Source: Odontesthes bonariensis
Lineage: Eukaryota; Chordata; Actinopteri; Atheriniformes; Atherinopsidae
DNA length: 64,000 bases
Reading direction: 5' to 3'
Assembly (NCBI RefSeq): GCF_027942865.1
Contig: NC_134526.1
Location: 5,355,784-5,419,783 of the forward strand
The translations under genes were made by a program, and so were the position numbers. The stretch's first letter is position 1, and each line of letters opens with the position of its first letter. The notes under the pieces are model-generated. The model had not been told where the DNA came from. It was given only the letters and a program-made list of their open reading frames with translations, and made no database searches. Shown piece after piece: positions 21,342-64,000 of this stretch.

Positions 21342-24300
21342 ATGGCATTACAGCTGATCTACGTGGTGACGGTGCTGGCTCTCCTGAATCAAGGTAAGAA
21401 TCTGCTCAGTGCACACCTGGATCGCTTTCAGCCAGAGTTCATGTTAATGAAGGAAAAGGTGTCACAACACAGAATAACGATCAGGAAAGAATGTAAAATA
21501 AAGCGTCACACTGAGCTGCTGCTGGAGCGTCCGACCGGTGTTCATGTCGTGGGTTTAAAAGTTTGTTTTCCTCTGATGTGATGGGACAAAGAGGAAAGAC
21601 TGGTTCCTGCTCTGAGGTTGGATTCTGCTCAGACTCATCCTGAGGGCTGAAAGGTGTGAGTGTTGTTTTTAACCTGGATTTAAAAATGTCTCCATTTGGT
21701 GAAAGTTTCATCTCCACTCTGAAAGCGCAGCAGAGGATGTCCTCATGTATCAGGAAACCTTTGACACTGAACAGAGGGATAACAGTGGAGAAGCCCCACT
21801 CTGTTAACACCAGCTTTGAACCTTTACAGCGAACCAATCCTTTTTGTTTGACTTGTTTGCTTTTATCTTTCAGAGTCACAGTCACAGTTGAGTGGTAAGT
21901 CAAAGCTTCTGTACATAAAGCAACATTTACAGATTTAGACTCTTTTTATTCTTCTTGCTCAGAGCAGACGGATGATTTAATGTGTGTGTTTCCTCAGATT
22001 GTGGCCAGCCACGACTCAACAGCAGGATTGTTGGAGGACAGGCTGCTCCTGAAGGCAGCTGGCCCTGGCAGGTCAGTCTGCATACCTCCGGTCACTTCTG
22101 TGGAGGATCCCTCATCAACAATCAGTGGGTGCTGAGTGCTGCTCACTGCTTCTCAAGGTGAGCAACACGGGTAGAGCTCATAGAGCTTCAGAGTTTATCA
22201 GTTTCTGATAAATCTGGTGTGATGTTCTTCAGGTATCCAGTAGCAACAGAGACACAAGTGATTTATTCTGAATCATCCAAGTCAGGGAGCGAGTTAGGAA
22301 TAAAACACCCCTCTGAAAAAAAGCTCAAGTCCTCCATGTTTCTCATTATTATATCATATTATATATAATATTATATCACTTTATCTCATAAACCCCAAAC
22401 AGGAGAGGATCTTTGTTGTCATTTTGCTTGTTTTACTGGCTGTTAAATCTGTTTTTGGTTGTTTTGTGTCTCTTTTGGAAAATCTGGAACATTCTTCATA
22501 AAATTATGGAGCTATGAGTTGTGTTAAACCAAATCTCAACATTTAAGCTAGTCATGCCCTCCTGACAAATAATTAAGTAACTAATATTTTTTAGTTTCCC
22601 CTGAAACTCTTTGGAGAACTACTAGAAGCCCTCCGTCCCACTTTGAAAACCTTAAATATGTCAAATTATTTAAGAAATAAATGATTATGTTGTGCAAAGG
22701 ACGGTTTCATCAACCTTTAAAATGTCACTTCTTCTGGTCTCAGTAACAACCCATCAGGCCTGACTGTGTTTCTGGGTCGTCAGAGTCAGGAGGGATCCAA
22801 CCCTAATGAGGTGTCTCGCACAGTGTCACAGATCATCCTTCATCCTGACTACAACTCAGGAACTAACTTCAACAACGACATTGCCCTCTTGAGGCTGTCT
22901 TCATCAGTGAATTTTACCAACTTCATTGCACCTGTGTGTCTGGCAGCCTCAAATAGCACCTTCTTCAGCGGCGTTGACACCTGGGTCACCGGATGGGGCA
23001 CCATTGGAAGTGGAGGTGGGTCAAAGAATGGAATAAATTAGAAAATTTCTGAAGAAATTCTGATGGGTGCGAAGCTACTGCCCGCCCAGAGACAGAGGCT
23101 GTAGTTCAGTGTTTCCTGTCACATATAAACTTTGAATCATGTCAGTATGGCTGAGTTATGAGGCCTCAAAAAAGGGCAGTTTTTGATTTTCAATGCATTT
23201 TCCCATTGACAATTTTCCCACTTTTTCCCATTTTGCCAGAATTCCTTTCCACTAATGAGACTCAAAAGTCATAGCACACTATTCCCGATCGTTGCGTACA
23301 CAGCGGTGTGCTTTTTATGTCGGTCGGACCATCGGTGCAATACTAGTAGCGCGCCGAAATTCATGACGGAAACGGGAGAAAAATAAGAGTTTGGCACAAG
23401 ATTAGTATGTGTGTCTAATGGCTTCGGCACTGGCACCCATAAATACAGATATAGGGGCTGCCTGATAAAGAGCATGTCATGGTATTGGGATGTATAAGAT
23501 AGGATGTTTTAACACCTTTTTGTTCAGTCTGTTTTTATGGGTGAAGACTTAAAAAGTGACATACATGCGTTGTTATTGTAAGGTTTCTAAATGTTGGAGA
23601 GGCCTCAGAGAAGGCATTGATGGAAGAAACTGAGGTCCCAGAAAGCAATGAATGTTTGAAAGTTGTCCCACATCTTCAGTCTTCTTATGGCCCATAAATG
23701 GCCTTGACTGACATTTACATCACATTCATTTCAGACATGCTTTGACCTAAAGTGAGGAACACAATGTAGACTTAGGTATCTTGCCCACATTGAATTCAAT
23801 TGGACCAGAACCCATCAGTTTGAATAATGACTCGTCTTCCTCCAGAACTACAGCTGCCCAGCTAACGAATGGCATAGACTCAAGATGAGTGTTGCTGCCA
23901 AAACTTAGGCACATTTCATTCAGACAGAGCCCAAAACTGCAGTTTATTTGGCCTTAAAGGCATGACTGGCTACCGAATACCTACTTTTGTTAATGTCTAT
24001 TCATATCTTTAATTTGATCCTATCTGTATTTTGTACAATTCATTGTTTTTTGTTAGTTATATATTTTGCATTGAGGCGTCTTTTCCATCAATGAAATGAA
24101 TGACAATAAAAGAAAATCTTATATACAAGTGCTAAAATCATCCTAGAATAAACCCAAATGCTCTCTGGGGAGCTGATTGCTTTGACAACTCAGTACAAAA
24201 TCGAAAACTTCTTAAAAAACTTCAAACAGCTGTTTATTTAACTGTATTTGCGTCTGTCCCCTTAGTGCCCCTTCCTTCTCCACAAAACCTGATGGAGGTG

Positions 24301-62944: not shown

Positions 62945-64000
62945 ATGGCATTACAGCTGATCTACGTGGTGACGGTGCTGGCTCTCCTGAATCAAGGTAA
63001 GAATCTGCTCAGTGCACACCTGGATCGCTTTCAGCCAGAGTTCATGTTAATGAAGGAAAAGGTGTCACAACACAGAATAACGATCAGGAAAGAATGTAAA
63101 ATAAAGCGTCACACTGAGCTGCTGCTGGAGCGTCCGACCGGTGTTCATGTTGTGGGTTTAAAAGTTTGTTTTCCTCTGATGTGATGGGACAAAGAGGAAA
63201 GACTGGTTCCTGCTCTGAGGTTGGATTCTGCTCAGACTCATCCTGAGGGCTGAAAGGTGTGAGTGTTAGTTTGAGTTGAGAGCAGAGGAGAACACCCACA
63301 CTCAGGTGGGAAGTGGGAAACTTCTCAGAGATCTCAGTCATCCTTTCAGGAGAAACCTGCTGTTCAGTCAGGAATCACAGCCTCTGTGGGGGGGTTCAGG
63401 ACAACTTCATCTGTCTCAGAAGTTAAACACTTTATTTCAGGTTTGAACACATTTAAGGTAAACACTAGAAACTTGTGCATACCTTAAATATGTTAAAAAC
63501 TTCCTGAAATAAAGTGTTTAACTTCTAAAAACACTTCATTTTTAACACAAATATAAATTCCTGATCTGAAGGACCTGTTCATGACATCTGAGCATTTATT
63601 TGTGATGTTTCCACATTTATAAATATAGATATCTATCTATAGATGGATATCTATGACTGTGGTGTATTAATAATGATCTGTTTACTGAATTAATAATGTA
63701 CGCTGAGCTCCTGAGGTCACGTCCTCCCCGTGTATGCCTGCGTTCTCTCGATCACATTAGCTGCTTTCCTTCATGAATCAGACTGAAAATCCTTTTTATT
63801 TGTTTTAAAAGGCACATTAACTTGTTTCAGTCTCAGCCGTTTCTTCCTGATTTTATAAAGATGTTCAATGTTTAAAAACCTCTCAGAGAAAATGAATAAT
63901 AATTAATATTTTTAGTATTTTAATGATTAAGATCCACTTTATTGTCATGTATACATGCATACACACGAAATTTGTCCTCCGCTTTTAACCCATCCAGGTT
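62945..64000 (+). CDS. GPI-anchored polyserase, copy C (exon 1 only, cut by window)
   Basis: Exon 1 (62945-62996) encodes [17 protein letters not shown] and a split codon before GTAAGA, identical to copies A and B. The following intron 1 matches copy B almost base for base, including the hairpin (63418-63526) and the start of the SINE (from about 63927). The remaining nine exons would lie beyond the window, so integrity is unknown. Near identity to B over 1 kb suggests the B-C split is younger than the split from A. Confidence 0.85.

Follow-up and report, generated by a model that had tools for sequence, protein, structure and literature searches.

Tandem S1 protease domains with dead members are already known, active-plus-dead polyserases having been recognised since the mid-2000s. 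A gene of this general kind, with a first trypsin domain (D1) and a second one (D2), is repeated head to tail in the stretch of Odontesthes bonariensis DNA analysed here, a window of 64,000 bases (C26:5355784-5419783) of the 945-Mb host genome. The closest described systems are presented after PMC1435904 (polyserases) and PMC5683605 (carboxypeptidase D). Polyserase-1 (TMPRSS9) is a type II transmembrane protein that contains an LDL-receptor A module and from which three domains are released (PMC1435904). Polyserase-2 (PRSS36) is extracellular, soluble and glycosylated, and its active first domain is followed by two domains without triad residues, whereas polyserase-3 (PRSS53) is secreted and unglycosylated, carries His, Asp and Ser in both domains and is active in the full-length protein only (PMC1435904). 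An earlier note on this DNA had cited both PRSS36 and PRSS53 as joining active and inactive domains, which is right for PRSS36 (one active, two inactive) but not for PRSS53, with triad residues in both (PMC1435904). The function of the inactive polyserase domains was still called unknown in 2017 (PMC5683605). Among the listed titles and abstract openings of the polyserase and prss60 literature, no fish gene family of such kind was found described, which is not proof of its being unpublished; of two fish papers, one names TMPRSS9 and the other cites polyserase-1 only.

As the earlier note had proposed, at least three copies of a ten-exon gene stand head to tail in the window: two complete ones, A (21342-29650) and B (41383-51101), and the start of a third, C, of which exon 1 alone (62945-62996) and part of intron 1 lie in the window, the remainder being taken from genome stretches outside it. 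The genome holds five such genes in one array, A to E (C26, 5377125 to about 5481164), a sixth gene, F, inverted on the minus strand about 173 kb from the array (C26:5203687-5196130; L038, L040), and a more distant two-domain paralogue, G, on the minus strand of another contig (C28:17489011-17485184; L041, L042), which is older than the array genes. In all seven D2 is dead, and codon comparisons indicate that it is under purifying selection and is not decaying. What is new is a natural series within one genome, in which constraint on the dead domain is measured and variation of the active domain is focused on loops, together with a doubly dead copy and a variable stalk.

Loss of the triad and constraint on D2

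The D2 triad is broken in 7/7 genes and reads Asn57/Asn102/Ser195 in A to F and Lys57/Asn102/Gln195 in G (chymotrypsin numbers of residues and loops were assigned from motifs). The replacement of His and Asp by Asn with retention of GDSGGP and Ser195, reported earlier for A and B, is thus correct; Asn57 is encoded by AAC in both and Asn102 by AAT in A and AAC in B. None of the seven two-domain genes found in this genome has an intact second triad. Because A and B are recent duplicates, their D2 losses count as one event and not two. Asn102 is common to all seven D2, and the loss of Asp102 may therefore be the oldest lesion.

The eight cysteines of D2, corresponding to four expected pairs, are invariant in all seven genes, as are 98 of the 237 columns of the D2 alignment. 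The A-F comparison of D2 yields 38.3 nonsynonymous changes at 524 sites and 36.7 synonymous ones at 172 sites (p=1.5e-6), and that of A and E 15.5 and 18.5 changes (p=3.5e-4). The ratio of nonsynonymous to synonymous rates (dN/dS) is 0.27-0.33 in all nine pairs of A-D with E or F and of E with F. The two copies of the window differ by 2 nonsynonymous and 6 synonymous changes in D2 (p=0.004), or 2 and 8 when the tail is included (p=4e-4). With a dN/dS of about 0.3 and its cysteines unchanged, D2 is retained, as had been supposed from the window. Constraint is claimed from D2 itself and from the comparisons with E and F, not from the contrast of D1 and D2 between A and B alone, for which a Fisher test of nonsynonymous against synonymous changes gave no significant difference (p=0.11, or p=0.06 when the tail is counted).

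Exchange of sequence between the copies

Divergence between A and B, measured per 400 bp, is 1.25-5.75% over D1 and the linker and 0-2.75% (mostly at most 1.5%) from intron 9 on, with 5 mismatches in the 1915 positions of intron 9. D2 exons 7-9 are common to genes A to F at a DNA identity of at least 91%; F matches A at 91-96% in these exons, but the match falls to 72-78% in exon 10 and in exons 3-6. Given the low divergence of A and B from intron 9 on and the confinement of the F-A match to exons 7-9, the dead half appears to have been passed between copies while the active half diverged.

These observations are also what would be expected if D2 were a passive relic, maintained by gene conversion and by the need for an in-frame tail, since F-array divergence is low in exons 7-9 only and intron 9 is nearly identical in A and B. 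The dN/dS of D2 argues against a relic, and constraint is also seen in exon 10, outside the low-divergence stretch (A against F, 21.8 nonsynonymous and 18.2 synonymous changes at 131 and 42.8 sites, p=0.0014). Moreover, D2 has kept its full length and all eight cysteines even in the distant G, and we consider the relic very doubtful.

Motifs and loops of D2

The activation motif NSR/ILGG (the slash marks the cleavage site) and GDSGGP are retained in D2 of the six C26 genes, whereas G reads NNGSLSDSS instead of the activation motif. This retention would be explained if D2 were a proteolytically switched ligand, in which a trypsin-like cut at Arg/Ile-Leu-Gly-Gly, possibly made by D1, flips the domain to the mature S1 conformation and makes a binding surface; the HGF family offers an analogy for such a zymogen-switched ligand. 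Both motifs are pointless for catalysis in a dead domain, yet they persist, and Asp194 is kept as well. In the account of PMC1435904 the activation motif is absent from domains 2 and 3 of polyserase-2 and from polyserase-3, so that its retention here is unusual. However, the motif is gone in G, D2 lacks C191, C220 and some of the mature S1 site, and some of the conservation among A to F is conversion, so that a switched ligand seems unlikely, if less so than the other alternatives.

The earlier note had stated that D2 keeps its disulphide cysteines, which applies to the eight mentioned above but not to C191 and C220. Asp189 and Pro225 are lost as well, and the 99-, 170- and 186-loops are shorter in the alignment than those of D1, prostasin, enteropeptidase and TMPRSS6. 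The 217-225 loop contains RRKR in A-D and F and RMKR in E, a motif absent in G. Five N-glycosylation sequons are found in D2 and the tail of A and B, and NIT and NLT lie in or beside the 99-loop.

The note had further suggested substrate capture or an inhibitor decoy, with the old cleft of D2 binding serpins, Kunitz-type inhibitors or substrates and thereby shielding or feeding D1. Ser195 and GDSGGP are left in six of the seven D2, but Ser195 is Gln in G. With Asp189, C191, C220 and Pro225 gone, the three loops short, RRKR in the 217-225 loop and sequons at the 99-loop, the use of this cleft by a canonical inhibitor or substrate seems unlikely, and the suggestion, which does not fit these losses, is very improbable. 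The basic R-x-K-R motif could instead serve as a shedding switch: a furin-like enzyme, or D1, would cut there and free the head and stalk from the anchor. It is present in six of the seven genes, and the absence of C191 and C220 means that no C191-C220 bridge would hold the pieces together. Against this, the motif is missing in G, which is itself without an anchor tail, and it may instead be a basic patch for glycosaminoglycans; shedding is thus quite improbable.

Gene models and genomic context

Copies A and B have ten exons each, in a single open frame with GT-AG introns, and encode 785 and 662 amino acids, respectively. Their features, with that part of C present in the window, are as follows.

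20952..21341 (+), copy A 5' flank with TATA-like site and start of the repeat unit, common to copies B and C (sequence comparison)
21342..21393 (+), copy A exon 1, start codon and signal peptide (predicted)
21874..21894 (+), copy A exon 2, 21-nt mini exon
21998..22157 (+), copy A exon 3, D1 activation site NSR/IVGG and His57
22744..23015 (+), copy A exon 4, D1 Asp102
24266..24411 (+), copy A exon 5, D1 Asp189 and C191
25241..26084 (+), copy A exon 6, D1 Ser195 and Thr-rich linker
26242..26413 (+), copy A exon 7, D2 NSR/ILGG and Asn57 (codon 26400-26402)
26959..27212 (+), copy A exon 8, D2 Asn102 (codon 27077-27079) and sequons NGS, NIT and NLT
27299..27396 (+), copy A exon 9, D2 C168 and C182
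29312..29650 (+), copy A exon 10, D2 Ser195 (kept), RRKR, hydrophobic C-terminal tail and stop
41383..41434 (+), copy B exon 1
43704..43724 (+), copy B exon 2
43828..43987 (+), copy B exon 3, D1 His57
44574..44845 (+), copy B exon 4, D1 Asp102
46084..46229 (+), copy B exon 5, D1 Asp189
47012..47495 (+), copy B exon 6, D1 Ser195 and linker
47653..47824 (+), copy B exon 7, D2 Asn57
48419..48672 (+), copy B exon 8, D2 Asn102
48759..48856 (+), copy B exon 9
50772..51101 (+), copy B exon 10, D2 Ser195 (kept), tail and stop
62945..62996 (+), copy C exon 1, the rest lying beyond the window (C26:5421079 to about 5428926 by model)

Exons 3-6 (D1) and exons 7-10 (D2) run through an identical series of phases, 1,2,1,0, and the exon structure is thus kept in D2, as had been noted. 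The match was not accepted as proof of an internal duplication, as many S1A genes may have these phases. The Pfam Trypsin profile matches both domains of copy A (D1, E=2e-73; D2, E=1.4e-34), and the prokaryote models of NCBIfam gave no family for either. No relative of D2 was present among 11 pattern matches in a viral collection or 50 in a prokaryote collection, which says nothing about fish. Neither a tree of D1 and D2 with three PDB relatives (7 rows) nor the separate D1 and D2 trees over A to G had enough support to show where D2 belongs or when the domains were duplicated.

A genome search with exon 4 DNA gave 7 places, and protein searches with D2 exons 7 and 8 gave 43 and 20 places, respectively. 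The family count of seven is that of the genes found; six other loci were translated (L014, L017, L024-L027), and two-domain genes of other kinds could remain. No further domain was present in the 38 kb examined downstream of copy E. One of the translated loci, L025 (C26:5801843-5802004), contains another D1-like exon that reads TAAQC (His57 to Gln), with Asp102 in a following exon, and may be a further dead protease, some 320 kb away from the array. The models are in frame across both domains in all seven genes. That of F is without exon 1, for which 3 kb of upstream sequence gave no match, and intron 8 of F uses a GC donor. Copy E lacks the TATA-like site of A-D and has AA at the exon-9 acceptor where A-D have AG; by eye, an AG three bases on would preserve the frame.

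The exons could also belong to two adjacent genes or transcripts (exons 1-6 and exons 7-10), or the copies could be an assembly artefact. An ATTAAA lies in intron 6, the join of exons 6 and 7 is taken from gene models, and B and C have a single mismatch in the 1,074 bases compared at the start. However, intron 6 measures 157 bp and contains no AATAAA, no stop precedes the donor of exon 6 in A or B, the frames match, no signal-like segment is evident by eye before exon 7, and the exon 6-7 join is open in all seven models. Copies A to E are up to 9% apart in D1 (B and C 4%) and 718 amino acids apart in linker length, which is much for collapsed haplotypes; a haplotype artefact is disfavoured on these grounds. 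Of all the explanations considered, this pair is the least probable.

Several repeats were observed in the window. Retroelement fragments lie in both repeat units (36285-37617 and 57832-59164), with an RVT_1 match at 36285-36722 (E=1.4e-14) and no Pfam match for 37000-37614; the insertion probably predates the duplication of the repeat unit. A BED zinc-finger fragment, probably from a DNA transposon, occurs three times, at 34786-35109 (Pfam E=1.9e-07) and, by likeness, at 56333-56656 and 16713-17036 (minus strand). Long AGCAG pentanucleotide arrays are found downstream of A (39997-40290) and B (61564-61852), and a 6.7-kb minisatellite of about 476 copies of a 14-bp unit (90% matches) occupies 6271-12930.

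Variation of the active domain

His57, Asp102 and Ser195 are all present in D1 of A and B, as the earlier note had read them, and these residues together with Asp189 are found in six of the seven genes (A-E and G). The exception is F, whose D1 carries Gly195 and Gly189; with Asn57 and Asn102 in D2 both of its domains are dead, and the frame is still open. The serine codons of A and B were compared with the markers of Krem and Di Cera as applied in PMC1435904 (TCN for Ser195, AGC for Ser214). TCA and AGC in D1 and TCT for Ser195 in D2 fit these markers, whereas TCG for Ser214 in D2 departs from them.

A set of cleft-loop positions, 60 of the 234 in D1, was fixed after A and B had been seen and before C-E. 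Eight of the 12 D1 changes between A and B fall inside it (p=0.003), as do 17 of the 28 residues variable among A-E (p=2.8e-5) and 9 of the 16 positions that became variable only once C-E were added (p=0.007). By contrast, 3 of 18 D1 codons with synonymous variation only lie in the set (p=0.0055 against the amino-acid changes). Owing to common descent and sequence exchange, the copies are less independent than these p-values imply: C and D probably owe their 99-loop to a single event, as B-D do their 217-225 loop, and adjacent D1 changes can also come from conversion by an unseen paralogue. Among A-D, 19 of 253 residues vary in D1 against 3 of 232 in D2 (p=8e-4). The D1 dN/dS is 0.28 for A-E, 0.29 for A-F and 0.56-0.66 for B-E, C-E and D-E. 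The D1 copies of the array thus differ mostly in the loops around the active-site cleft.

Ends of the protein and linker

The protein begins with a hydrophobic N-terminal segment, continues with D1, a Thr-rich linker and D2, and ends in a hydrophobic C-terminal segment with nothing behind it. In hydropathy plots of A and B both ends are the most hydrophobic windows, without a charged tail, and the C-terminus of C-F is hydrophobic by eye. These windows would fit a signal peptide at one end and a surface anchor at the other, and thus the surface-anchored trypsin suggested earlier, and the hydrophobic tail probably becomes a glycosylphosphatidylinositol (GPI) anchor. G has no hydrophobic anchor tail, and its product is probably secreted.

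The linkers of A to G, with their span set by motif, measure 202, 82, 82, 69, 787, 23 and 18 residues, respectively, or 69-787 within the array. The longest is encoded by exon 6 of copy E (L033-L034, C26:5476282-5478880), 2,599 bases open throughout, and consists of a different repeat unit rich in NDS sequons, with 60 sequons in all. The linker of copy A contains 2.3 copies of a 96-bp unit at 25506-25724; part of this unit resembles, by eye, the 39-bp linker repeat inverted and adds 11 residues in frame to the Thr-rich stalk.

Proposed function of D2

We propose, with about equal weight for and against, that the conserved D2 serves on the membrane side as a platform on which trypsin heads diversify. 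The product of an array gene would consist of a signal peptide, active D1, a Thr-rich mucin-like stalk, the pseudoprotease D2 and a hydrophobic tail as probable GPI anchor. D2 would be folded, N-glycosylated and held at the membrane, would bear the anchor and would stabilise or position D1 in cis; it may also bind a partner through a surface other than the old cleft. The stalk length would set the stand-off distance of D1, and the array would present trypsin heads of differing specificity or inhibitor sensitivity on one conserved base. The platform is supported by the retention of a dead D2 in 7/7 genes, on two contigs. Precedents for such a supporting role are polyserase-3, whose separate domains are inactive while the full-length protein, with triads in both domains, cleaves substrates (PMC1435904), and carboxypeptidase D, whose inactive third domain is required for full viability in flies (PMC5683605).

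Several points weigh against the platform. Gene conversion accounts for part of the sameness of D2: the synonymous divergence between A and F is 0.76 in D1 but 0.25 in D2, and the stretch of low divergence takes in exons 7-9 but not exon 10. Since D1 lies inside the block of higher A-B divergence, its excess of changes over D2 is not all selection, and its dN/dS of 0.31-0.88 within A-D could also result from relaxed constraint. Over the long term D2 has drifted faster, with an identity between A and G of 46% against 65% for D1. G, with no anchor tail and a linker of 18 residues, makes it clear that platform and anchor are not universal, and F has the same architecture although its D1 is dead, which leaves uses of D2 conceivable other than serving an active head. 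Finally, the GPI anchor was deduced from hydropathy and by eye alone.

A more elaborate form of the platform is a modular display, which we put forward tentatively and think rather improbable as a whole. The D2-plus-anchor half would be kept constant by purifying selection and gene conversion, the substrate loops of the heads would diversify, and the mucin stalk would vary in length (69-787 residues) and repeat unit, resulting in a repertoire of cell-surface trypsins in which F may be a non-catalytic competitor or binding member.

One genome here provides natural replicates, namely five array copies, one doubly dead gene and one older gene. Taken together, the seven genes show selection on the dead domain, separate it from the varying active domain and name the residues to test. 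The intact retention of the dead domain suggests that this half of the protein still has a job and, if the platform is real, it would explain why dead protease domains persist beside live ones.

Comparison with known systems

The fish genes share tandem S1 domains with TMPRSS9, but their hydrophobic N-terminal segment begins at residue 1, unlike the type II arrangement described for that protein, and no LDLRA match was present in the two stretches scanned. Prostasin (PRSS8) is GPI-anchored and has one protease domain; the fish D1 is about 45% identical to it and the fish tail is likewise hydrophobic, but the fish gene has a second protease domain. Active domains and a conserved inactive one in a single chain are also described for carboxypeptidase D (PMC5683605), which has an unrelated metallopeptidase fold. 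With PRSS53, as it is described, the fish genes share two S1 domains, a signal peptide (predicted here) and, in A and B, three coding exons up to the activation site; the triads of polyserase-3 are complete in both domains, whereas that of the fish D2 is lost.

Judged by its domains, the fish gene would work most like polyserase-2. Both have several S1 domains per chain with catalytic residues in the first only (six of the seven fish genes, F having lost both). They differ in that the fish genes have two domains and not three, with a probable membrane anchor and a Thr-rich stalk, and in that the fish D2 keeps R/ILGG in six of seven genes, whereas domains 2 and 3 of polyserase-2 are described as lacking Arg-Ile-Val-Gly-Gly. 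PRSS36 is reported to be glycosylated, and the fish proteins are known only to carry N-glycosylation sequons.

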